Virus record (IMG/VR): IMGVR_UViG_3300030222_000026
Span: 1-54,646 of that record
Source: a virus
Length of the DNA stretch: 54,646 nt
Strand: one strand, 5' to 3'
Below are positions 3,408 to 20,589 of the stretch, in pieces. How positions within the stretch are numbered: position 1 is the first letter of the stretch; every line of letters begins with the position of its first letter. The position numbers and the translations under genes are program-made. Below the pieces are notes generated by a model that saw only the letters and a program-made list of their open reading frames with translations, did no database searches and had not been told where the DNA came from.

Positions 3408-3773
3408 TCAGGGGCGGAGCCCCTTCCGGTCGAGGTAGGCTTCGTAGAGGCGGATAAAGTCGCCAAGGCGGAGAAGGACGGTGGCGTCGTCCATGGATTG
3501 GCGAGAGCGCCGGTGGATCACTACGGGGGTCTCACCGGGGGCGGCATTGCGGATTGCCTGTGCGAGGAATTTCTCGGGCTCAAGGCGTTCCGTGCGCTTG
3601 GCCTCAATGGCCAGGGAGGGGGTACCGATGAGGTCTGGAGCGCCGACCCCGGGGTTCTCGATGAACTGCGTCGTGAGGCAGCGGCGGTGGACGGAAAGGC
3701 CAAGGGTGGAGGAGAGGTGGGCGCAGAGGTCGCGCTCGAACTGATCGCCCTTGGCCTTGGAGCGCTTGACCAT
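3408..3773 (-). CDS. PD-(D/E)XK nuclease, Holliday-junction-resolvase-like
   Basis: This 121-aa basic protein has the layout of small archaeal-type or phage resolvases. It shows KGDQFERD with Glu13, then GAPDLIG with Asp47, then LAIEAKR with Glu57 and Lys59, which together form a PD-(D/E)XK active site. Such enzymes cut branched DNA before packaging or during recombination. The gene starts directly after the stop of the upstream HTH/zinc protein (TGA next to ATG). The nuclease fold is fairly secure from the motifs; the exact substrate is inferred. Confidence 0.75.
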   Translation of the reverse strand: MVKRSKAKGDQFERDLCAHLSSTLGLSVHRRCLTTQFIENPGVGAPDLIGTPSLAIEAKRTERLEPEKFLAQAIRNAAPGETPVVIHRRSRQSMDDATVLLRLGDFIRLYEAYLDRKGLRP

Positions 3774-4076
3774 TCATTCCTCCATGGCCATGCCGAGCTT
3801 GCGCTTGCACGACTGGCAATAGAACTGCCACTTCGGACGTGGGGTTTTGTCGCCACAGCATGAACAGGGCCTTGACCACATTTGGATTTCAGGGAGTTCG
3901 GCGGCGATGTATTTCGCACCTGTGAATTGGACGATCCGGTTCTTGTGTAGGACACGCTTGCAGGTGTCGGTGCATACACCGATCTCGCGGGCCATGGTGC
4001 TGTACGGGATCTTCATGGCCGAGGCGACACGCAAGAACTGGAGTTGCCCCTCTGAGATGTTCGCGCGGCGAGGCAT
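3774..4076 (-). CDS. HTH and zinc-ribbon DNA-binding protein
   Basis: This 100-aa protein has an N-terminal helix-turn-helix-like region (about residues 8-48, including YSTMAREIGVCTDTCKRVL). A C-terminal cysteine set, CSCCG then FYCQSCKRK, probably binds zinc. The ATG at 4076 is preceded by GGAGGA. It is the first gene of the 3000-4076 group and lies just downstream of the degenerate palindrome at 4108-4130, so it may belong to the phage regulon. A DNA-binding or endonuclease-like role is plausible but unproven. Confidence 0.72.
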   Translation of the reverse strand: MPRRANISEGQLQFLRVASAMKIPYSTMAREIGVCTDTCKRVLHKNRIVQFTGAKYIAAELPEIQMWSRPCSCCGDKTPRPKWQFYCQSCKRKLGMAMEE

Positions 4077-4130: not shown

Positions 4131-4366
4131 GTTCAACATCTTGTTGTCCAAAACAGCGTGATCGTCAATGGGCGAAGCCCCGCCCTAAAGCGGGGCGAAG
4201 CCCTCCCGGACGCCTGCTTTAGGCAGAGAGGGGGTCGATGCAGGGGCCTCCCCGGAGCGCCATGCGACGGCCACGGGAGGGGAGACGCGCCTCGGATGTC
4301 ACGGGTCGTGGAAAAGTTGCACACAGACGGCATTTAGATGTTGTTTTCGCTTGACGGATCTGTGTA

Positions 4367-4509
4367 AAATCTCAACCAACCCCCATTGGGGACGACGCCG
4401 CTTGCCTTACGGCGCGGCGTCTGAAGGGGCGGCACACGGAACGTTCCACTCTCCCCTCGAGTGTGCCGCACCGGGAACAGATTGAGGGCGTGGGGGTTGG
4501 TTGAGATTT
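4367..4509. repeat. 19-bp perfect inverted repeat enclosing two inner hairpins
   Basis: The arms 4367-4385 and 4491-4509 are perfectly complementary over 19 bp. Inside are a first hairpin (4394-4401 with 4414-4421, extended by GCC/GGC around TTAC) and a second (4429-4437 with 4461-4469) whose loop holds the palindrome GGAACGTTCC. A transcript would fold as a closed multi-branch structure. The right arm ends six bases before the ATG at 4515. Confidence 0.85.
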
Positions 4510-4514
4510 CAGCA

Positions 4515-4736
4515 ATGCACAATTTTAAGGCGAAATCCCGTGAAAAACAGAGGGAGCGTGAGCGAATTGCAGCGCTCAACCGCGCGCGCAATCCGGACGT
4601 TGCGGCGCTGGTGGACATCCTGCGCGAGGAAGGGGTCGACCCTCAGGTCAAGTACGTCGGGCCAGTGCGGGAGAGCACGAAGGCACGATTGGCGAGCCTT
4701 CGCTCTGATGAAAATTCCAGTGGATTATCGGACTAG
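4515..4736 (+). CDS. Small charged protein of unknown function
   Basis: This 73-aa protein starts MHNFKAKSREKQRERER. It is strongly basic at the N-terminus and has the segment DVAALVDILREEGVDPQVKYVGP. The ATG at 4515 lies just after the right arm of the 19-bp inverted repeat and lacks a clear Shine-Dalgarno site, so translation may depend on RNA folding. Its 3' end overlaps the convergent gene at 4725 by 12 nt. The coding call rests on composition and an uninterrupted frame. Confidence 0.5.
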   Translation: MHNFKAKSREKQRERERIAALNRARNPDVAALVDILREEGVDPQVKYVGPVRESTKARLASLRSDENSSGLSD

Positions 4737-5128: not shown

Positions 5129-7153
5129 TTACGGGCGCTTTTCGTACCTCTCAACCCACTCCTCGATGGTGCGGATCGACTTGCCAAGCGCCGCCGCAAT
5201 CTGCGGAACGCTCATGTTTTTCAGGTACATATCGACGAACCTGTCATAGATGGTCTTGAAGCTGAACAGGGATTGCTTCCCCGTACTCAGTTCGATGATC
5301 CGAGCGATGTAGTAGTGCTTCTCCATCAACTCGTCTTCATCGCGCGTCTTTCCCATGCTCACACGCATGAGCATCGTCACCTTCCAGTCGATGCGCCCAC
5401 CCGGCAATTCGTTGTAGATGCGGTCGTGAATGCTCGGAAGCTCCTCGGAACGCGCGTCATGCACACCCCCCTTCTCACGCGCCACATCCTCGTCCTCATA
5501 GAGCAGAGCCGTATAGAGTTGAGTTTCGACTGCATCCAACTGAGACGTCGAGCCCGCATAGGAGCCCAGACCACGGTCGCCCGGCTTGTTGCGGTGGTGG
5601 AGCAGGATGATGCTGATGCCCTTGTTTCGCAGCTTGATGAAGAACTGGTTCAGAGGCTTCCATTGCGAAGCGTCATTCTCGTCCAGTGTAGGGAAAGCCG
5701 AGCGGATCGTGTCGATCACGATGAGATCGGGCCGCACCTTCATGATCATCCGGTACAGCCGCTTCCGGTTCTCCTTGCTGTCCAGCGTCATCGGGACGTG
5801 GCGAGACATGGACGCATTGTAGGTCACAACGTTCTCGACATGGGTCGGTCGCAAGGGGCCGATCAGTTCTGAGTTGTCGTGGATGCGGTTGCGGATCGTT
5901 CGCTTCCCCTCCTCGTAGTTCAGATACAGAGTCCGGAAACGACGCATCACCCTGAACGGGCCAACCCTGCGACGGCCTGCGGCTGTCGCGTGTGTAATCA
6001 GTTGCACGAGAGTCGACTTCCCCTGCCCCGTGTAGCCGCTGATATGGACGATATTGTCCTTCGGGATGATCGGCTCAACGAGAAACTCCGGCTCATAATC
6101 AGCCAGCAGGTCGGAAACCTCAGACAGCGTGTGTAGGTCAAGATCATCTTCCTGCTCAGGCTCTCGAGGTGGCTCCTCCATCGCCGCTGTCGCCGGGTTT
6201 CGGTGTGGTATGTAGTTACCGCATTCATCAAATCGCTCGGGATGGTTCCGGCGCTCCATGTCCTCGACCGACCGGCAGGTCGCACGCCACTCCTCGTCCT
6301 CGAGGCGGTCGACGAAGAAGGTGTCCATGAAGTGCAGGACGCGCTCATCCAGCTTTTCGCCCCAATACCCCGCGCGAACCTGCTCGCTCGCGTACATTAA
6401 TACGCGCTGGTTGCGGTAGTTGCCCTGCCCTGTCGGGATTTTTAGCGTCGCAGAGTAGTTCTCTGCCACATACTGAGAAGTCCGTTCCCATTCGGAACGG
6501 TAGTCGATGACATCGACACCGGTCAGGTCAATCGGACCATCACTGGAAAGGCCAAGAGGGAGCGGGGCGGAGGCCGCGCCAAGATACTCTCGAGGCGTGG
6601 AGTCAAGCGGCCACCCCTCCCACACTGGCCATTCGTCCAGTTCGTCTAGACCGACATCGGTGTCGAAGATCCACTCGTACCCACGAGAAGGGGCGATGAC
6701 CGCATAAGAGCCATCGCCCCGGAAGTCGAGCCCATCGAACTTGGGCCAGTCATGCCCGCGTGAATTACTCCCGGCACGGGGGCGAAACTCCTGCCCGCCC
6801 GGATGCCTGAAAAAAAGGTGCATGCCGTTCTTGGTCTTGGCCCGGATGGGCGACCACACACCGCACCGAAGGCAGAAATCAATCGCCTCCTGATTATCGC
6901 AGTCGACGACAACAATTCCCGACAAGGTGCCCGTGATCAGGGCCAGCTTGACCTCGTCCGGTGGGATACCCTCCCTTTCGGCCAGACATTGCCAACTTTC
7001 GACATCCGCTTCAGTTGGCAACTCTGTCTGGAAACGACGCCACCTGACCATCGCCTTCTTGGTCTTCGGCGAGATCGGAATGACGGAAAAGCCCCGCTCC
7101 AGGTATTCGTGGGCTGCGTAATCAAGAACACCTACCGCTCTGGTTCTCTCCAT
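5129..7153 (-). CDS. Bifunctional primase-helicase (Prim-Pol plus RepA-like AAA)
   Basis: This 674-aa protein has an N-terminal primase-polymerase domain (about residues 8-185). It shows VVVDCD84-D86, GMHLFFRHP with a conserved His, and DFRGDGSYAVIAPS. A RecA/RepA-type ATPase domain follows (about 350-580) with Walker A GYTGQGKST (373-381), Walker B LIVID481 and an ILLHHRNK motif. The last 35 residues look like an HTH (SVPQIAAALGKSIRTIEEW). It probably primes and unwinds phage DNA. Its start overlaps the HTH gene upstream by 22 nt, with only a weak ribosome site. Confidence 0.85.
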   Translation of the reverse strand: MERTRAVGVLDYAAHEYLERGFSVIPISPKTKKAMVRWRRFQTELPTEADVESWQCLAEREGIPPDEVKLALITGTLSGIVVVDCDNQEAIDFCLRCGVWSPIRAKTKNGMHLFFRHPGGQEFRPRAGSNSRGHDWPKFDGLDFRGDGSYAVIAPSRGYEWIFDTDVGLDELDEWPVWEGWPLDSTPREYLGAASAPLPLGLSSDGPIDLTGVDVIDYRSEWERTSQYVAENYSATLKIPTGQGNYRNQRVLMYASEQVRAGYWGEKLDERVLHFMDTFFVDRLEDEEWRATCRSVEDMERRNHPERFDECGNYIPHRNPATAAMEEPPREPEQEDDLDLHTLSEVSDLLADYEPEFLVEPIIPKDNIVHISGYTGQGKSTLVQLITHATAAGRRRVGPFRVMRRFRTLYLNYEEGKRTIRNRIHDNSELIGPLRPTHVENVVTYNASMSRHVPMTLDSKENRKRLYRMIMKVRPDLIVIDTIRSAFPTLDENDASQWKPLNQFFIKLRNKGISIILLHHRNKPGDRGLGSYAGSTSQLDAVETQLYTALLYEDEDVAREKGGVHDARSEELPSIHDRIYNELPGGRIDWKVTMLMRVSMGKTRDEDELMEKHYYIARIIELSTGKQSLFSFKTIYDRFVDMYLKNMSVPQIAAALGKSIRTIEEWVERYEKRP

Positions 7154-10389: not shown

Positions 10390-13300
10390 CTATTCCGTAT
10401 CGCGTGTGTAGTCGATGAAGTCGAGCGTCGATGGGTCGATTTTCGCGGACTGACGTTGTCGGGTTCGCTCAGCCTCTCCCGCCGCCAAATCAACCATCAT
10501 CTCCCGGACGGGCTTCACACCGCCAAGGACGGGCACGCGCTCGGCAATGGAGCGAACGCCACGCCGCTCGGTGGAGTTGCTATCCGGGGTGCGGTCGAGA
10601 AGAGCATCAAGCCCCCCAGAGGCCACGTTGAACGCCCCAACGCCAGTGGAGACGGACGGCCCGAAGAGGGTCGAAGCCACCCTCACCTGGCCATAAGCCC
10701 CATTGTCCGTCTGAGACACGACGTCGTGGATCATCTCGAGGAGAAGGCCGAACCCTGCTGCGTGCGTGAAGCCTTCGACCACCCAACCGGCGTACATGTC
10801 GATGGTCTCATCGTCCATCGGCTCCGACATGAGCGGGTTCCAGTCAGAGAAACGACGCTCTCGAAGAGCAAAATCGGGATCATCCCGCTCGCCACCACGC
10901 CCCTGAACAATGTCCTTCACAGCCAGGGAGCCCATGCCTGCGGCAGGAGCGGCTGTGAGCAGCCACATGGCGCGGCGCAGATCGCCCGTCCCCTTCAGGT
11001 TGCTCGGAGGCTTCTTCCCAAGCATGTCGTAGAGGGCCAGCTTGACGTCATCGACGATGATCTCCTTGGACATCCTCATCATCATAAGGGGGAAGGACTT
11101 GAGTTGGAAGATCATCGCCCCGAGCGGCGTCTGACCCCAGATCGGAATGTCTGCCGGGTTCGGAGCGAAGATGGACTCGTCGGCAAACTTGATCACGGCA
11201 ACACGGGCGGCGTCGCTGTCGGCAATACCGATGGCCTCGTTCGTGTAACGCCCCTCGAGAACATCCGGACTGTCGATCATGGGGGCGCTCCGGTGGGTGA
11301 AGCCCTCCAACCCATAGTTCTTGAGTGTGCGGTAGGCGCGCTTGACCTTCGCGGGCTGCTGGTGGAACGGGACACCATCGACCCAGGCGTCGTGAGCCTT
11401 TTTCTGAGCCGCCTTGAACGTCTCAATGGCGACCGCACCAGCGAAACGACGGTTCACATCCGTCCAGGGAGTCAGGCCAGTTGCGTTGAAAAAGGCGTTG
11501 GTGAAGCGACCATCTGATGCTCCCCACATGTAGGCCAGCCTGTCGTGCAGGATCGACTCCCCCGCGACACCAATGTTCTCCAGCATCTCCCTGTAGACGG
11601 GATCGCTGGCGAAACGCCTGAGCGCCTTCGCATAAGCACTCATGTTGCCAGAGCGGATGAGCGGGAGGACGGGGTCGCCAAGTGAGGTCAGCGTCGTGAA
11701 GCCAAGGAGGGTCACGAGGTTGAAGTTCCGCATGCCACGCGAGAACTTCAGCATGCCCTCATGGTCGGACAGCGTCTTGCGGTTAGACACCTTCATCAAG
11801 CGCTCGATGAAATGGGCCGCGTCGTTGGTGATGAGGTGCGGGTCTCCATCGAAGTCCGAGAGCGCGGCGAGGATCGCCTCGACGCGACGCTCGTAGAACA
11901 ACGACGGCTCCCCATTGGCCTGATCGACTGGCTGGTACTTCATCAGGATATTGCGGGCGACCGGCTCTCCGAGCCCTGGGTCGGCAAGAGCCTCTTCCAC
12001 CTCCCGAATGACCTGAGCCGCCTCCTGCTCCTTCCCCTCGAAGGGCATGTTGAAGGTGTCGAGGAAGACGACCTCCTCCATGTTGCCGCTTTCGTCGCGC
12101 GCACGTTTGGTGGATTGAAACACCTTCTTGGTGGTCAGGAGTTGAACCGCACCTGCTGTGCCATCCTGCATGACCTTCAGGTAGTCATAAGCCCCATGGG
12201 AGCCGATGCCGAAAGTCTCGATCTGGTGGATGCGACGACCAGCCTGATCGTAATACTTCACCATGACGGCCTCGAGGTCGTCTTCGAGGAACTCTCGCAG
12301 GGCCATGCTGGTGTCGGAGTTGTCCAGGCGGATCGCGCGAGAGCCATCAAGGTTCTCGGCTGCCGAGTTTCTGGATGCCCCACGGCCCGGCACCATCAGC
12401 CCTTCACTCTCGTCGTCGAGGATTTTCAGGACAGTGCGGCGAGCAATCTCCTCAGTCTCCTCGCGGCCAAGGGGGTTGCCCTCGCGGAGCGAGGCATCAA
12501 GGAAGTGATCCCGGAGAAGAGACGTGAAGCGCTCGCGGTCCTCGGTCGACTTGTGGATCTTGTGAACGCTCCACAATTGCGGGAAGTAGTCCTTGATGAA
12601 CCCGATGCGGGGGTCGATGCGACGCATGGCATCGTGCGTCCTGGCCAGGTGATCCGCAATGGCCTGAGCCGCACGTTGCTCTTCAGAGGACATGGCGTTC
12701 CAGTTGCGCTTGTTGCGCTGAGGATCGACAGAGCCACGCTGCGACAGCCAGCGGAAAATTCGCTTATGGCTTTCAGGCTGGTCAGCCCCGAATTTCCTCG
12801 TGCCAGCCGCATCCGCTGTTGCGCGACGATACCAGCGATGGAGGGCGTGCTTCACGCTACCGCTCGAGTCAGGGAGCGTGCGCAGGATCTTCAGTGGCCC
12901 CTTGTCCTGAAGCCCACCATGCAGAAGACGGTTGGTGATCTGCGTCGAGCGCTGGAAGTAGGTGTCGAACTTCCCGGCGAGCCAGTGGGCATTGAAAACA
13001 CGGAGCGTGTTGGGGTTCGAGCGGAAGACGCCCTCGGCGAAGTTGCCAATGGCGCGGCCACCGGGGAGCATGTCGAGCATCCCGCGAACAAGGCCACGGT
13101 TGCCGTTGTTTTTCGTAAGGCGAATGACCGCCCTCTGGTCGGCATCCGAAGGCGCGCGCTTGCGGACGAAATTCCCGATAGCATGCTGGACATCGCGCAG
13201 AGGCTCCGCCTTCGAGATCGAGGAAAGGATGATCGTCGCCTTCGCGTCGTCAATGCCAGACGCATCGCCGTCGACCGTCCTGTTCAGGACAGGGCCAGAC

Positions 13301-16300
13301 GGGCGGATCGGGGTGCCGGTCGGGTGAGCGAACTCCTCAAAGAACTCCGGTTCAGCCGTGAGTTTGACATCGGATGGGTCGAAGAGAACCGTGCTGTCGA
13401 TAGCGTTGAACCCACGGTATCCAGACGCCCGGAACAGGTTCGACGCAGCGGTGCGGCTCGTGGCTTTGGAGAGACGCTCATAAAGCAGGTAGTTCGTCGG
13501 GAGCGTGTCGATCTCCTCAGCCTGATCGCGCACCATGGCGGCGAATGACTCGAGGGCCTTCGTCATCTTCTGAGGTGCTGTGCCCTTGTACCGTCCGGAC
13601 GCAACGGTTTCGAGGAGGAGCGAGACGATCTTCGGATACCCATCTTCACTCAGCGAAACCGGAGCGCCGAGGTCGAGGAGGCTCGTCGTCCGGGCAATGA
13701 CCGGAACAACGTAGTCGTCGTGGAGGACATCCTTTAAGTCCTCCATCAGGGCGGCTTCACGGTCGAGAGCGTCCGAGATAGACTTGGAGGCGGACGGCCC
13801 GGTGCCACTCGATGCCTTGTTCAGAAACTCCCTTGTCTCCTGAAGCAAGCGGATCTTTTCAGTGACTTCGCCTGTCACAACAGCGTCATCACGCAGGAGC
13901 GGAATGGAGTTCGAAGGGACTGCCTGAAGGTAGACGCCAGGGCCGAACTCCTTGTTCATCGAGACGATGGATGGAGAGTCTGTCTTCGCGGCCTTGGATT
14001 TTGCCGAAATCCGGTAGAACATGACAGGGGCGGTCTTCCCCGAAATGTCCTCTCCAGCGAACAGGCTCATCTCCCGCTTCCGGCTCGGGGGAGCGGACAT
14101 GACGTCATCAATCGCGAAGCGCGCTTGCCCCGGCGTCAGAATGTTGTTGGCCGGAAGATAGGCTCGAGGAACAAGATCGCCGCTGAAGGGGTTGCCATAC
14201 CAAGTCAGACGGGCGTTCGTTTTCGCGACGGGCTCCGACATCAGACCGTTGGCCATGTAGCCGACGCGGTCGATAATGCGGCTGATGAAATCATCAGGGG
14301 AAGAGGCATTGCCAGACGAGGGAGCCATCGGAGGAAGCGGGGCGGCCTCGTTCATACTGTTGTGAAGGCGGTGATGGACGGCCTTGCGAACCCACATGTC
14401 GGCAACGGAAATCGCTTCCTCCGGGTTCTCTCGTGCGATGTTCCGAGCCTCCTCCGGAAAGAACGAAGTGACCTGCTCGACCCAATTGTCCCCATCCAGT
14501 CGCGCGGCGATTTCCGAAAGCCGGTTGATCGCCTCCGCGCTGTCCCCATTCCTGCCGCTCAGACCGGAACCAATCTGCCGGAAGGTTTCGACGAAGCGCT
14601 TGTGCGCCTCGTTGCCAGTCGCGACGAAAAGGCCGTCGACGAATGGCTCGCTCTCGAAGCCAAGGAGGTTCTTCACACGTTCAGCATCGAGCGGATCGCC
14701 CTTGTCGGCAAGGTTCAGGAAGCGAAGGGCAGCCTTGCGGGCTGTATATTCCGTTCGCTTCTCCCGATGAGCGATGGAGATCAAGACCTGGCGCGTGCTC
14801 TGGTCGATATTGCCAGGGACGCCGCGCTCGGAGGATGCAAAAGTGTCGAAGGATTTCTCCCGCTCAATGGCGTCGAGAACGGTCGGCTCTGCAAAGGAGA
14901 TGATCGGATTGCCATTATTGCGAGAAGCCAATTCAAGGGCATAGGCATCGACATCCTCATCGCCAAGACGGAACGCCTCATCCACCGTGGCCACCAGATC
15001 GTCGATATCCTGAATGGAAGCGCCCTTCCGGAGTGGAGCACCATCCTTCATGTAAGGATTGATGATGACCTTCGTTCGCTTCGCTGTTTCCAGCGCCTCG
15101 GCATAACGATCCGCCTGATCCGTTTCATTGGCCTCGATGACACGTTCGAGTTCGGTTTCAGACATTGCCGTAGCCGAAGTCATAGACTGTGCATCGGAAG
15201 CTGGACGGATCGGTGCGGTCTTCCGTCCAGTGTTCTGGACCGCCACCTCATCGACCTTCTTGCGACGACGGGCGCGGACCTCGGCAGCACGCTCACGAAG
15301 GCTCTTCGAGGCCCTCTCCATGTGCTCGACTGTCGTGCGCCCCTCCTGAGCAAGCCTCACCTCGCGCTCGGAGCGACTCTCGGCACGCTTGAACTCCTCA
15401 ACGGTTTCCGAAGAGATCTCGATTGTAGCTTCGCTCCCGTCGATCTTGGCAATCGCGAAGCGTCCAATTTCGGGGCTGTCCTCGAAGCCAATGACACGAG
15501 CCACGAAGTCGTCGGTCTTGTGCAGGAAAGGGTCGCCGATCCGGACGTCATGGAACTTCTTCCGGTCGTTCCCGATGACGGCGACCTTCGCATCCTTCGC
15601 ATCCTTCGTGCGGTCAAGGTACTTCTTCTCGAGAGAGGCAGGGGTGTATTTCGCGCGAGCGCCATTGCGCTCGAAGGACGTATCGAGGGACTTGTGCGCA
15701 AGGTTTAGCCAGTCGGACAGAGAAGACCCCTCGGCGCGCTCACCAGACCCGACCTTCTTCTTCCCATACAGGAAAAGCTCCATCAGGCGGTCGGCGACCT
15801 CCTCGGGCCTCGCGCCGACCTTCAGGCTGTCAGAGTCAAGATCGCGCACGCTGGCGGCAGCATGGTCCAGGGCGTTCGAGTTCTTCTTGGTGAAGGGGTC
15901 TTTCGTAACCTCCTTGGCATCCGAAATACCAACGACCTCACGGCCCGCAAGAATACGGGCGATGTCGTGCGCCTTGTTCCGGCCATGAGCGGCGAGGCGG
16001 TTCTTGCCGCCAGCATGGTAGGCATAGAGAACACCAGCCTCGCCATACTGCGATTGCAGGGGAGTTCCGGCGCGCTCTGCCGCGCGCCTCATGATCGACG
16101 CCATCTGCTTCTTGGAGAACGTCGAGCCATAAAGATAGGAGAGGGTCTCCTTCGCTGCCTGAATGGCCTTGTCCGGGACATCCCGATTGGCAACGGCATC
16201 GTCCCAAAGCTCATCCAAATATTGGAGCCGTCGAGAGTGGTTCTTCAAAACTCGGACGTAGGACGCGCGCTCTTCCGGAGCGAGTTCGAGAAGCTCCTCC

Positions 16301-19300
16301 TCCGTGTAGTCACGGACCCAATTCTCGATAGGGCCAGTGCGGCGCTCCCCGTCCTTCTTCTCATCGGAGTTCAGACCAGGCTTGACCTTCTTGCCCGTGC
16401 GGCGATCTGTCGACGGTGACGGCGGAGTCGGAGTGTCGTCCACGTCATCCGTTGTATCTGCCGCGTCGGGAAGCGCGTCGCCAGCGCCAGAGGCAGAGTC
16501 GAGCTTGCGCGCCTCGATCTCCGCCATCTTGCGCTTTCGCTCGGGGAGCAACCTCGCGAAGTGCGGGACCAGATCAGGGTCGATGGAAGTCTTGGCGAAG
16601 AAACGGTCGAAGACCGCCTTGATGTAGTAGGTCGCCTTCTGCCAGATCGAGCGCTGAGCATCTCCCCGGACTTCACGAGTGGCCCACATTGCGAACTGGT
16701 TCGCGAGGAACTCGGCCGGGCTGTCGAGAGCGTTCAGAACGCCAACCGCACGCCCATTCACCGCCTCGATGGGAGAGCGCTTAAAGACATCCAGCGGAGA
16801 GAAGACGCCATTGGCGTCATAGTATTTTCCGAGCGACTCCATGACGGATGCCTTGTCGGCATCCGACATCACATGAACCCACGCCCAATGGAAGATCTCA
16901 TGGAACAGCGTCGCGGTCGGCGGCGTATCGCCCTTGGCAATACGCGACGTGTTGAAGGAGACCTGCCCAATGCGGTCGCCACGAAGCCCGCCAGTGGCCG
17001 TTTCCGCCGCCGCCTTCATGGACGCATCCTGAGCGAACCGGGGGAGTGCACGGGAGGCCAGTCGGTCGACGAACTCCTTCGCGGTCTTGACCTGCTCAGA
17101 GCCGAATGACGAAAAGATCAACTCGATCTCGGCAAGGGCAATGGTCCTGTCAGCCTCGGGCAGAGCAACCCCATAAGGAGCCAGTCGAGAACGCATCTCG
17201 GTGAGGCGCTGGACGAGGGCCAGTAGCTCACGCTGCGCGTCAAGCGAGGTCGGCCACTTCGACATGAACTTGTGAGCACCCTTCAGACGACGATGCGCCC
17301 CCAACTCGATGTTGGTCAGAAGGCGCTGGATCGTACGCCCATTCACACCCCCGCCACTTGCGCGAAGGCCGTCGATGTAGGCGACCGCATCACCGCTCTT
17401 GACCTGGAGGCCAGCGGCCACACGAAGCGTACTCCAGTCTTCCTCCGTGAGCTTCTCCGGCGAGAGTATCGCGGACTCGAAGTCCGCGAAATTCATCGCC
17501 GTGCGCTCCTCGTACCTGGTGATGGCAGGCGTCTGAGGTTTGCCTGACGACGCAGCCTTCTTCCCAACTGCGGTGTTCGGGGTGTCAGGATCAACGTAGG
17601 TGGCCGTCCAGTCCTCGAGATCCTGCTTCGTGCCAACAAGATCCTGAGCCGTACGCTTCGCGTCGATGTCGGACTTGCTGGCAAGAATTGTCAGGCTCGG
17701 GTCCTTTTTCAAGGTGAGGAGAAGGCGACGACCCTGATCGTCGACAAGATCAGGCATGTCGATGGGAGTATCAACGGATGCCATCTTGCGCTCGGCGCGC
17801 TTCACACGCGCGAGCATCTTCTCCACGCTGATCTTGCCAGCCGCGTAATCGTCGAGGGCCTTCTTCTGGATGTTGCGAACGCGGTTCTGCTCGGTCGGAG
17901 CGGCCCGGTTCACCTCGTCGAGAATGTGCTTAGGGGCCTTGGTGGGGGACTCCAGACCCATGGCCGAATAGACGTTCCGCCAGTTCTTGAAGACCTTCCC
18001 GTTGGGCGAAACCCACAACATGGAGCCGCTCGGGGAGACCTTAGGGCTGTCGACCGTCTTCGTCTGGCGCGTGGCGATGAACGCCGCAGGCAGATCCTTG
18101 CTCTGGGCGATCACATTCGCTTCGTCGCGCGTCGCCACATTCTGGTAGTTGGCCTCGCTCTCGGTCGGGGCCATGCCCCGATCCGTCGAATACTCTTCGC
18201 CCGTCTCTTTCGATGTGTAGGAACGGCCAGGGCGCATGAAGGACTGGATGTTCTTCTGCGTGTCCTCGGTCGCATAGATGGACTTGCGCTCGATGGAACT
18301 CTGCGCGGAGCGCGTGCGGCCAGTGTCCGAGACGGATGCCGCGCGCTCGACCGCCTTGGTCGCCCGGTCGCGAGCAATGATCTCCGGCATGTCCGGATTG
18401 TCCCGCATCGTCTCCATCGTGAGACGCTCAATCTTACGGGCCTTCTCGCGAGCCAGACGCTTCTCGGTCTGCTGGCGCTCGTACTCCGCCTTGCTCAACT
18501 TGATTGGCGCAGAGCCCTCCTCGACCCCCGCTTCCTTCGCAGAGCGCACGTAGCGCTCGATCTTGGCGTACTGCTTGGCGTCATCGGAAACGCCGAGTTC
18601 TTGCGCGACCGCGCGTGCGATCATCGACGGGTCGTCGCGGAAACTCGCACGGATTTCCTCCGGCATCTCGTCAAGGCGCTCAACCAGTCGCTCGGTCGTG
18701 GCGCGGACGTTCGTGGCGAAGTCCTCCTCCGCAACACGCTCAGGGGTTTCCTGAGCCAGATACTTGCGGATATCGCCCTGAGTGACCTTCCCATCCTTGC
18801 CAGTGGGCGTCACATCATCGAGGTCGACAAGGTTCGCATCGGCAAAACGACGAACCTGTTCGCGGGTGACACTGGATGTGGTCGCCTTGGGGGGCACCTC
18901 GGGAGGGATAACGCCAGTGGGGGCAGCCCCGGCCTCAGCTTCGGCACGCTCAAGCTCAGCGAGTCGGGCGACAAAATCGTCGAGCGTTCCAGCGTCATCA
19001 AGACCTTCATCGACAGGCGTGGAGTCAGGAACTTGTTCGGTGACTTGTTCGGTGGGCCGCTCATCTGGAGCGGTTACACCTTCCTGGGAACCCGTGCCTC
19101 GCGCCGCCTCAGTGGGCGCTTCAGTCGGCGCTTCAGCACCCTCCCCCTTGGCGGTCGTACGCGCGGCTTGTCCACGACGCGGCTCACCCCCCTTCTTCGC
19201 TTCCTTCTGCTGCTCGGCCTGCTGCGCCTTCTGCTGCTCGGCCCGCGCCTTTCGCTCCTCAAGTCTCTGGCGGATGAATGCGCCATAGTCCTCCGGGACA

Positions 19301-20589
19301 GTCTCCGTCAGGAGCGCGTCCAGCATGGCCATGTCTTCCTCGAAGACGCCAGCCCGCTTGCGGGCGCGCTCGAGAGCATCCAGCTTATTGCTGCCCTCAT
19401 CCTTGATGATCTGGGCAAGCTCGTTCTCGGTGCGCTGCTGGAACTCGAGGGCCATGCGAACGTTGGCGAGACGGCGCTTCACCTCGTCGAGATAGTCCGG
19501 GTCGGCGTCAGCCTCCTCGCCAAACTCGACCTGACGCCGGTATTCGTTGAGAAGCTCACGCAGCTTGGCCTGATGCTGTTTCAGCTTGAGACTGTCTGCC
19601 TCGCGGGCCTCGGCGGCAGCGCGTTCCGCCTCCATCTCCGCAGTCTGCTCGGGCGTCAGATCCTCCTGAGGGGCATCGGAACGCGAGGCCAGGACGGCAG
19701 GAGACGGGGGGCGCTGGTTCTGGACGACCTGCCTGACCTCGCCCAGCGTCATGTCCATCAGTTCAGTGGGGCGATAGCCAAGGTCGATGGCCTGGTCATA
19801 TGCCTTACTCGCCTGGGAGCGGCCAATCGCACCGCCCGCAGCGCCGAGGATCGAGCCGACACCGGCACCCATCAGAGCACCAAGGGTGACATCCTCAAGG
19901 ACAGCCATACCCGAGACGCCGTCCTGAAGCCCAAGCTCGGATCGCATCGACTGTTGACCAACAGAGGCAAGACCCTCCGCCGCGCCGCTGATCAGGCCCT
20001 CGACCTTCGCGCCGTGGAGCGCACCCTCCTTCAGGGCGCGACCAACGGTGAAAGACTCCCCAAGAGAGCGCGCGGCCAGGAGGCCCTTGCCCACTTTCGC
20101 CGATGCGCTAACAGCAGGGATGACGTTGAGCGGGTCGGTAATGACGCCCTCGGCAATTGAGGGTACGGCAGACAGGCCGCGCCCCCCCTCGGAGAACATG
20201 CCGGGGTATTTTTCGGAAACCTGCTGAAGGCGCGCGAGCGCCGCCTTGCGCTCTTCGGAGGAGTTGGCTGCGTCCGCGAGAGAGCCAGTCGCACCAACGA
20301 AGTTGCCAACGGAGTTGAAGGTGCGCCTGTTGAAATTGTCGAGAACGAGGTCGCGAAGCTCCTCGCGCGTCTTTCCCTCGGCATCAACCCCGAATGCGGT
20401 TCGAACGTCCTCGAAGAAACGAGGGTCGTTCATCAACTCATCAGGGATACGGGCGCGTTCTGTGTAATCGCCCGGATCAGATTGCACACTTTGGCTGGGC
20501 TGCTGCTCCCGGAGTCGGCGACGGTATTCGCTGACGGATACACCTGCGGCTTCGGCAGCGCGGGAAAGCGCAAGAAAATCTTCGGACAA
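10390..20589 (-). CDS. Giant internal/ejection protein with protease and ART-like segments
   Basis: This 3399-aa protein ends a run of internal virion genes, like the very large ejection proteins of T7-like and Bcep22-like podoviruses. A Gly/Ala hydrophobic stretch lies near residues 150-260. A fold like the E2 peripheral-subunit-binding domain (REQVRRFADANLVDLDDVTP) lies near 565-605. A zinc-protease motif, LFHEIFHWAW, is near 1228-1237. An ADP-ribosyltransferase-like part is near 2190-2410 (MFYRIS, FGPGVYL, then GYRGFNAID and VLFDPSDVKL). Membrane-prone segments occur near 2955 and 3205. Translation appears to start at TTG (20589), preceded by GGAG. It is probably injected with the DNA; enzyme activities are inferred from motifs. 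Confidence 0.8.
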   Translation of the reverse strand: MSEDFLALSRAAEAAGVSVSEYRRRLREQQPSQSVQSDPGDYTERARIPDELMNDPRFFEDVRTAFGVDAEGKTREELRDLVLDNFNRRTFNSVGNFVGATGSLADAANSSEERKAALARLQQVSEKYPGMFSEGGRGLSAVPSIAEGVITDPLNVIPAVSASAKVGKGLLAARSLGESFTVGRALKEGALHGAKVEGLISGAAEGLASVGQQSMRSELGLQDGVSGMAVLEDVTLGALMGAGVGSILGAAGGAIGRSQASKAYDQAIDLGYRPTELMDMTLGEVRQVVQNQRPPSPAVLASRSDAPQEDLTPEQTAEMEAERAAAEAREADSLKLKQHQAKLRELLNEYRRQVEFGEEADADPDYLDEVKRRLANVRMALEFQQRTENELAQIIKDEGSNKLDALERARKRAGVFEEDMAMLDALLTETVPEDYGAFIRQRLEERKARAEQQKAQQAEQQKEAKKGGEPRRGQAARTTAKGEGAEAPTEAPTEAARGTGSQEGVTAPDERPTEQVTEQVPDSTPVDEGLDDAGTLDDFVARLAELERAEAEAGAAPTGVIPPEVPPKATTSSVTREQVRRFADANLVDLDDVTPTGKDGKVTQGDIRKYLAQETPERVAEEDFATNVRATTERLVERLDEMPEEIRASFRDDPSMIARAVAQELGVSDDAKQYAKIERYVRSAKEAGVEEGSAPIKLSKAEYERQQTEKRLAREKARKIERLTMETMRDNPDMPEIIARDRATKAVERAASVSDTGRTRSAQSSIERKSIYATEDTQKNIQSFMRPGRSYTSKETGEEYSTDRGMAPTESEANYQNVATRDEANVIAQSKDLPAAFIATRQTKTVDSPKVSPSGSMLWVSPNGKVFKNWRNVYSAMGLESPTKAPKHILDEVNRAAPTEQNRVRNIQKKALDDYAAGKISVEKMLARVKRAERKMASVDTPIDMPDLVDDQGRRLLLTLKKDPSLTILASKSDIDAKRTAQDLVGTKQDLEDWTATYVDPDTPNTAVGKKAASSGKPQTPAITRYEERTAMNFADFESAILSPEKLTEEDWSTLRVAAGLQVKSGDAVAYIDGLRASGGGVNGRTIQRLLTNIELGAHRRLKGAHKFMSKWPTSLDAQRELLALVQRLTEMRSRLAPYGVALPEADRTIALAEIELIFSSFGSEQVKTAKEFVDRLASRALPRFAQDASMKAAAETATGGLRGDRIGQVSFNTSRIAKGDTPPTATLFHEIFHWAWVHVMSDADKASVMESLGKYYDANGVFSPLDVFKRSPIEAVNGRAVGVLNALDSPAEFLANQFAMWATREVRGDAQRSIWQKATYYIKAVFDRFFAKTSIDPDLVPHFARLLPERKRKMAEIEARKLDSASGAGDALPDAADTTDDVDDTPTPPSPSTDRRTGKKVKPGLNSDEKKDGERRTGPIENWVRDYTEEELLELAPEERASYVRVLKNHSRRLQYLDELWDDAVANRDVPDKAIQAAKETLSYLYGSTFSKKQMASIMRRAAERAGTPLQSQYGEAGVLYAYHAGGKNRLAAHGRNKAHDIARILAGREVVGISDAKEVTKDPFTKKNSNALDHAAASVRDLDSDSLKVGARPEEVADRLMELFLYGKKKVGSGERAEGSSLSDWLNLAHKSLDTSFERNGARAKYTPASLEKKYLDRTKDAKDAKVAVIGNDRKKFHDVRIGDPFLHKTDDFVARVIGFEDSPEIGRFAIAKIDGSEATIEISSETVEEFKRAESRSEREVRLAQEGRTTVEHMERASKSLRERAAEVRARRRKKVDEVAVQNTGRKTAPIRPASDAQSMTSATAMSETELERVIEANETDQADRYAEALETAKRTKVIINPYMKDGAPLRKGASIQDIDDLVATVDEAFRLGDEDVDAYALELASRNNGNPIISFAEPTVLDAIEREKSFDTFASSERGVPGNIDQSTRQVLISIAHREKRTEYTARKAALRFLNLADKGDPLDAERVKNLLGFESEPFVDGLFVATGNEAHKRFVETFRQIGSGLSGRNGDSAEAINRLSEIAARLDGDNWVEQVTSFFPEEARNIARENPEEAISVADMWVRKAVHHRLHNSMNEAAPLPPMAPSSGNASSPDDFISRIIDRVGYMANGLMSEPVAKTNARLTWYGNPFSGDLVPRAYLPANNILTPGQARFAIDDVMSAPPSRKREMSLFAGEDISGKTAPVMFYRISAKSKAAKTDSPSIVSMNKEFGPGVYLQAVPSNSIPLLRDDAVVTGEVTEKIRLLQETREFLNKASSGTGPSASKSISDALDREAALMEDLKDVLHDDYVVPVIARTTSLLDLGAPVSLSEDGYPKIVSLLLETVASGRYKGTAPQKMTKALESFAAMVRDQAEEIDTLPTNYLLYERLSKATSRTAASNLFRASGYRGFNAIDSTVLFDPSDVKLTAEPEFFEEFAHPTGTPIRPSGPVLNRTVDGDASGIDDAKATIILSSISKAEPLRDVQHAIGNFVRKRAPSDADQRAVIRLTKNNGNRGLVRGMLDMLPGGRAIGNFAEGVFRSNPNTLRVFNAHWLAGKFDTYFQRSTQITNRLLHGGLQDKGPLKILRTLPDSSGSVKHALHRWYRRATADAAGTRKFGADQPESHKRIFRWLSQRGSVDPQRNKRNWNAMSSEEQRAAQAIADHLARTHDAMRRIDPRIGFIKDYFPQLWSVHKIHKSTEDRERFTSLLRDHFLDASLREGNPLGREETEEIARRTVLKILDDESEGLMVPGRGASRNSAAENLDGSRAIRLDNSDTSMALREFLEDDLEAVMVKYYDQAGRRIHQIETFGIGSHGAYDYLKVMQDGTAGAVQLLTTKKVFQSTKRARDESGNMEEVVFLDTFNMPFEGKEQEAAQVIREVEEALADPGLGEPVARNILMKYQPVDQANGEPSLFYERRVEAILAALSDFDGDPHLITNDAAHFIERLMKVSNRKTLSDHEGMLKFSRGMRNFNLVTLLGFTTLTSLGDPVLPLIRSGNMSAYAKALRRFASDPVYREMLENIGVAGESILHDRLAYMWGASDGRFTNAFFNATGLTPWTDVNRRFAGAVAIETFKAAQKKAHDAWVDGVPFHQQPAKVKRAYRTLKNYGLEGFTHRSAPMIDSPDVLEGRYTNEAIGIADSDAARVAVIKFADESIFAPNPADIPIWGQTPLGAMIFQLKSFPLMMMRMSKEIIVDDVKLALYDMLGKKPPSNLKGTGDLRRAMWLLTAAPAAGMGSLAVKDIVQGRGGERDDPDFALRERRFSDWNPLMSEPMDDETIDMYAGWVVEGFTHAAGFGLLLEMIHDVVSQTDNGAYGQVRVASTLFGPSVSTGVGAFNVASGGLDALLDRTPDSNSTERRGVRSIAERVPVLGGVKPVREMMVDLAAGEAERTRQRQSAKIDPSTLDFIDYTRDTE

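Follow-up and report, generated by a model that had tools for sequence, protein, structure and literature searches.

A likely stem-loop replication origin of the pRN1 type, in variant form, beside the Prim-Pol/helicase gene of a CRP-810-type phage

The window, i.e. the whole 54,646-nt stretch of viral DNA analysed (IMG/VR record IMGVR_UViG_3300030222_000026), carries a gene for a replication protein at positions 5129–7153 on the minus strand. The protein contains a Prim-Pol domain (PF09250, E = 3.9e-21), an AAA_25 helicase domain (E = 1.4e-20), and a C-terminal helix-turn-helix (HTH) domain resembling HTH_23. It is a homologue of pRN1 ORF904, whose structures (1rni, 3m1m, and 1ro0) were the best solved (PDB) relatives of its profile, with E values of 9e-7 to 3e-6. 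Among deposited phages, a relative of this protein was found only in Roseobacter phage CRP-810 (38.9%). The window also encodes cobT, a cobS-like AAA_5 protein, an integrase, TerL, and a portal protein, and these genes, together with Prim-Pol/AAA_25, assign it to the CRP-810-type (cobS/cobT, integrase) phages as judged from the encoded proteins. This family was described in PMC11288001, in the text of which the words 'promoter' and 'inverted repeat' are absent.

A minus-strand gene at 3774–4076 encodes a 100-aa protein with an HTH motif and a four-cysteine zinc ribbon, which is conserved across the family on the opposite side of the element described below. Pfam gave weak HTH matches only for this protein, and one of its helices is nearly invariant among relatives. 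It is adjoined by a gene for a RusA-like/PDDEXK Holliday junction resolvase (3408–3773, minus strand). Directly 3' of the element lies a small conserved plus-strand gene (4515–4736; 73 aa), represented in relatives by the ENRRKYPEIA..VDEVRKYFP family. In CRP-810 (locus L009), the region from the rep gene to the resolvase gene is mostly unannotated: the HTH/zinc-ribbon gene corresponds to L009:14035–14316 with no annotated feature beneath the match. The stem is also present in this region, as is a homologue, likewise unannotated, of the small plus-strand gene.

The element is closed by a stem, P1, identified on the plus strand by repeat search and DNA folding. Its 5' arm AAATCTCAACCAACCCCCA (4367–4385) and 3' arm TGGGGGTTGGTTGAGATTT (4491–4509) are complementary at 19/19 positions and lie 105 nt apart, and position 4365 pairs with 4511 beyond one A–C mismatch. 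P1 encloses two hairpins found in the DNA folds, namely hairpin A (4394–4421), in which GACGCCGC (4394–4401) and GCGGCGTC (4414–4421) form 8 bp plus GCC/GGC, and hairpin B (4429–4469), in which GCGGCACAC (4429–4437) and GTGTGCCGC (4461–4469) form 9 bp around a loop containing the palindrome GGAACGTTCC (4438–4447). An earlier sequence-only reading had described a perfect 19-bp repeat enclosing 8- and 9-bp stems with a palindrome in one loop, and its coordinates were confirmed. P1 is the sole perfect inverted repeat of at least 13 bp with 40–260 nt between its arms in the whole 54.6-kb window. When its intergenic region was shuffled 200 times, no repeat as long as 19 bp arose. Folding of both strands, which that reading had suggested as a check, yielded DNA centroids consisting of exactly P1 and hairpins A and B on each strand, with minimum free energies of −44.5 kcal/mol (z = −6.2 against shuffles) on the plus strand and −43.2 kcal/mol (z = −6.9) on the minus strand. 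The RNA folds gave z values of −5.2 (plus) and −6.4 (minus), and the 9-bp stem is rearranged in the minimum-energy fold of the plus-strand RNA, so the drawn structure suits DNA or the minus strand better than plus-strand RNA. None of the predicted genes of the window convincingly overlaps the stem, in agreement with the claim that no gene explains the structure. No Rfam 15 match at gathering score was obtained in the window and 10 relatives, and no terminator was found.

Eighty related loci were fetched with a four-sequence alignment of the replication protein. In nearly all of them, the order in the orientation of the window is the HTH/zinc gene (minus), the inverted repeat, an optional plus-strand gene, and the rep gene (minus). 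A perfect stem of 10–19 bp was found in 68 of 74 loci and in 29/29 non-redundant regions, compared with 1.9 regions expected from dinucleotide shuffles. These stems usually span 99–158 nt, are separated by 83–965 nt from the point where the primase match ends, and comprise 22 distinct arm sequences across the family. Judged by eye, the element survives in altered form in some of the exceptions, as a 14-bp stem with a span of 262 in L067/L068, an interrupted stem (7+4 bp) in L054, and a degenerate one in L076; L069 is seemingly rearranged, and L073 is truncated. In L067 (8330–8591), a Sphingomonadaceae prophage-type relative, GGATCAAT/ATTGATCC constitute a competing hairpin that surrounds the 5' arm. 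Relatives have a central hairpin that is GC-rich and comparable to hairpin B; a central hairpin with a conserved 1 × 1 mismatch is common (24/44) but not universal. Nucleotide searches of phage and plasmid records for the element returned nothing, an exact arm search of viral contigs returned two chance matches, both without the repeat, and prophages in GTDB genomes yielded only two partial Prim-Pol matches without a clear element.

The gene directly following the element usually belongs to the small ENRRKYPE family. It is replaced by a RuvC-like gene in L033, L035, and L052 and by a SET-like gene in L004 and L005 (names based on our reading of the sequences), and no homologue is found in the L006/L074/L077–L087 clade, in which the element is kept. 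L077–L087 retain the element together with a promoter close to consensus, yet have no homologous gene before the end of the convergent rep gene. Because the downstream gene is swapped or absent while the element stays, the element is not the leader of that gene.

In most relatives, a TTGAC-like −35 sequence lies at a fixed distance, 16–17 nt before a TAnAAn −10 sequence within the 5' arm, which covers the −10 and the discriminator of this σ70-like promoter; TTGA occurs at −19/−20 in 19/29 relatives. In the window, a weak −35-like TTGTTT (4341–4346, plus strand) stands where the relatives have a conserved TTGAC(T) and is followed, after an 18-nt spacer, by a −10-like TAAAAT (4365–4370, plus strand), which overlaps the 5' arm at its outer end and is positioned as in the relatives. 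A strict consensus promoter scan of the window found none, and the weak TTGTTT-18-TAAAAT fails that scan. A few loci, namely the window itself, L010, L060, L072, and L004, have the arm further downstream, where it covers roughly −7 to +8. GGTGT/ACACC motifs in the relatives were counted 48 times upstream and 3 times downstream of the element, compared with 3.7 expected, and none was found upstream of the element in the window itself. The near-invariant helix of the HTH/zinc protein is easier to reconcile with a motif that stays constant than with arms that vary.

As MAFFT did not align the structure of whole elements, the stems were anchored on the −10 instead, giving a covariation set of 20 distinct stems. 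In this set, 12 of 14 base pairs are changed on both sides, a positive outcome for the compensatory changes in related phages that the sequence-only reading had proposed to look for. Doubly changed cells numbered 70, compared with 21 in shuffled and 7–17 in slid alignments, although these are not counts of independent events because the stem sequences are related. In core columns 4–11, all 160 cells are Watson–Crick with zero G–U, and the isolated mismatches of the inner helices include one G–T. This absence of wobble argues, with due caution, for DNA over RNA, the arms having originally been found as perfect repeats. The arms of L053 and of L061/L070, whose replication proteins are 94–95% identical, differ by a compensated T–A/A–T swap, and the C-terminal HTH of the replication protein is identical at 43/44 positions between L053 and L070, which speaks against a simple recognition of the arms by this HTH.

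The closest known counterpart is the plasmid pRN1, in which replication requires a 100-bp stem-loop beginning 54 bp 3' of orf904 and needs nothing beyond this stem-loop and the rep operon, and in which the structure of the stem-loop is conserved and its sequence variable (PMC4234260; PMC3869888). One stem mutation in pRN1 was tolerated only when symmetry, not the wild-type sequence, was restored (PMC4234260). The CRP-810-type loci likewise possess a pRN1-family Prim-Pol gene and, in its 3' vicinity, a stem-loop of ~100 nt with a long perfect stem, the sequence of which drifts under a kept structure. Unlike pRN1, they have a three-branched interior and an embedded σ70-like promoter, and their Rep carries AAA_25 and another, HTH_23-like, domain in place of the SF3 helicase and winged helix, which makes the element a variant rather than a strict member of the pRN1 type. 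We therefore consider it likely, with a probability of roughly 0.6, that the element is a DNA stem-loop replication origin of the pRN1 type, located 3' of the phage's own Prim-Pol/helicase gene; this function is suggested by position and by homology to the experimentally tested pRN1. The best reading appears to be a new variant of such an origin, with a RepA-like rather than an SF3 helicase and with a promoter built into the stem. A replication origin was one of three candidates named in the sequence-only reading, and it appears well supported by position, covariation, and the homology of the replication protein to ORF904. Against it stand the AAA_25 helicase, compared with SF3 in pRN1 and BPP-1, and the promoter overlap, which also fits a transcriptional role; GC skew gave no clean origin signal. 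The lack of a comparable stem in some sampled Prim-Pol phages and the RNA-like features of the plus strand, both described below, likewise count against it. For this marine phage family, no previously described origin was found, and the element marks a likely one. How Prim-Pol replicons initiate is unsettled, and the two groups that mapped the pRN1 stem-loop disagree on the mode.

In the proposed mechanism, the region would extrude, or be held single-stranded and folded, under negative supercoiling or promoter melting. The replication protein, with its Prim-Pol, RepA-like ATPase, and C-terminal HTH, would assemble on the element, unwind, and prime, perhaps joined by the HTH/zinc protein on the GGTGT repeats. 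Because the −10 lies inside the stem, promoter firing and stem folding would be either mutually exclusive or coupled, which would tie transcription to initiation. A tentative extension, possible rather than probable, is that the −10 and the start region of the origin's own promoter are part of its folded state. The same DNA would then alternate between initiating transcription and folding as an origin, with the promoter serving as a built-in switch or melting device, and this arrangement would be widespread in a globally distributed phage family.

A stem-loop has also been proposed for phage BIP-1 (PMC4234260). In BPP-1, a 22-bp stem with a span of 104 nt lies 3' of the rep gene, and the arrangement resembles that of the CRP-810-type loci: a small HTH gene (minus), the stem, a small gene (plus), and the Prim-Pol gene (minus), the small gene often separating stem and rep gene in these loci. 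The flanking small proteins of BPP-1 are not recognisably homologous to the CRP-810-type ones, and BPP-1 differs in that its helicase is of the P4-type SF3 kind and its arms consist of internal repeats and contain no −10. Among BPP-1-like loci, the stem is 3' of the rep gene in 63/66, with 40 distinct arms, compared with 6 in upstream control stretches. The repeats in these loci (L102–L172) are perfect over 14–28 bp, span 86–111 nt, and lie 3' of a P4-type/Prim-Pol rep gene (522–621 nt after the end of the rep match in L102). Their arms contain two direct repeats of ~9–10 bp, e.g. GCGACGTTT present twice, and the first bases of these repeats vary from phage to phage, as would be seen with a drifting iteron specificity; in these phages, iterons and pairing thus appear to be mixed. 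The mycobacteriophages Prithvi, Chris, and Adonis carry 17–21-bp inverted repeats (AGAACAGAT-type) just 3' of the primase gene (L093:6227–6353, L098:3546–3673, and L101:3555–3683), that of Prithvi being overlapped by two tiny annotated ORFs, and a comparable stem was absent from the sampled Prim-Pol phages Shawty, Armstrong, GrootJr, PIN1, and BoostSeason. Of these stem-loops, only that of pRN1 has experimental origin function. The occurrence of the same kind of element in CRP-810-type and BPP-1-like phages, with different helicases and tens of arms each, suggests a general, testable origin class; strict covariation and two families would take it beyond a single-plasmid curiosity, with the isolated phage CRP-810 as a model.

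In the oriV of RSF1010/IncQ, with ssiA and ssiB, an archaeo-eukaryotic-type primase recognises DNA hairpins, with a RepA-like helicase and iterons nearby (PMC4434180). The CRP-810-type system shares the type of primase, the RepA-like helicase, and hairpin DNA with repeats nearby, but it has one large element and one fused protein, whereas RSF1010 uses three separate proteins (RepA, RepB', and RepC) and a 40-nt ssi site on each strand. No second comparable repeat is present in the window. In single-strand promoters such as F plasmid Frpo and the M13 complementary-strand origin, the promoter motif lies within the folded strand. Here the stem does not include the −35, and folding of a single strand would therefore leave the promoter incomplete.

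The promoter overlap also accommodates a transcriptional switch with no origin role, in which cruciform extrusion, or an RNA/DNA hybrid between the 3' arm and the melted −10 region, shuts a promoter that would be supercoiling-sensitive or self-limiting. The placement of the 5' arm over the −10 and discriminator at a fixed distance from TTGAC in most relatives agrees with this explanation, and the repeats overlapping the −35, together with the divergent HTH gene, resemble an operator region. We regard it as rather unlikely, given that the element and its promoter are kept in L077–L087 without a homologous downstream gene, that most of the arm is downstream of the −10 in four cases (the window, L010, L060, and L072), and that the BPP-1 stem (by eye) is without such a promoter.

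A structured RNA, the second candidate of the sequence-only reading, would be a small non-coding RNA or leader made from the plus strand by the embedded promoter or from the minus strand within the rep–HTH operon. The unpaired plus-strand bases are purine-rich (A644, G410, T228, and C197), many loops are GNA/GNRA-like, and the plus strand folds better as RNA in 33/44. Nevertheless, the 5' arm is the promoter −10 in most relatives, in which a plus-strand transcript would begin where P1 ends on its inner side and would not include the 5' arm, and the G–U-free core, the single G–T of the inner helices, and the lack of an Rfam match likewise disfavour a purely RNA structure, which we consider unlikely. 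It is quite improbable that the arms represent a single protein-binding site (iteron or operator) present twice in inverted orientation, with pairing irrelevant, as the iteron-like direct repeats of BPP-1-like arms and a site-reading protein at the upstream GGTGT repeats might suggest: the arms match each other at positions that vary freely between relatives, which points to pairing, compensated changes separate phages with a near-identical rep HTH, the inner hairpins are kept as well, and the pRN1 stem mutant was rescued by symmetry. Translation control or a UTR function for the 4515 gene, the remaining candidate of that reading, is scarcely credible, for although only 5 nt separate the element from the start codon and most relatives keep the gene family, this distance varies widely and the element persists where the gene is swapped (RuvC-like, SET-like, or other) or missing.

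An attachment site was rejected, the attP of CRP-810 being at its tRNA-Thr (PMC11288001; tRNA at L009:9328–9402) and not at the element. In L033, L035, and L052, the gene that follows the element looks like a RuvC-like resolvase, and the RusA-like resolvase occupies the other flank found in the family; enzymes that cut junctions are grouped here around a three-way structure. Hairpin promoters of the N4 type, which would serve a virion RNA polymerase, were also rejected, as a 3399-aa protein of the window has no RNA polymerase match in Pfam. This open frame (10390–20589, minus strand), for which the only Pfam match is E3_binding, probably encodes a giant internal virion protein, and it exceeds the 2016-aa CDS that adjoins internal virion protein D in CRP-810.
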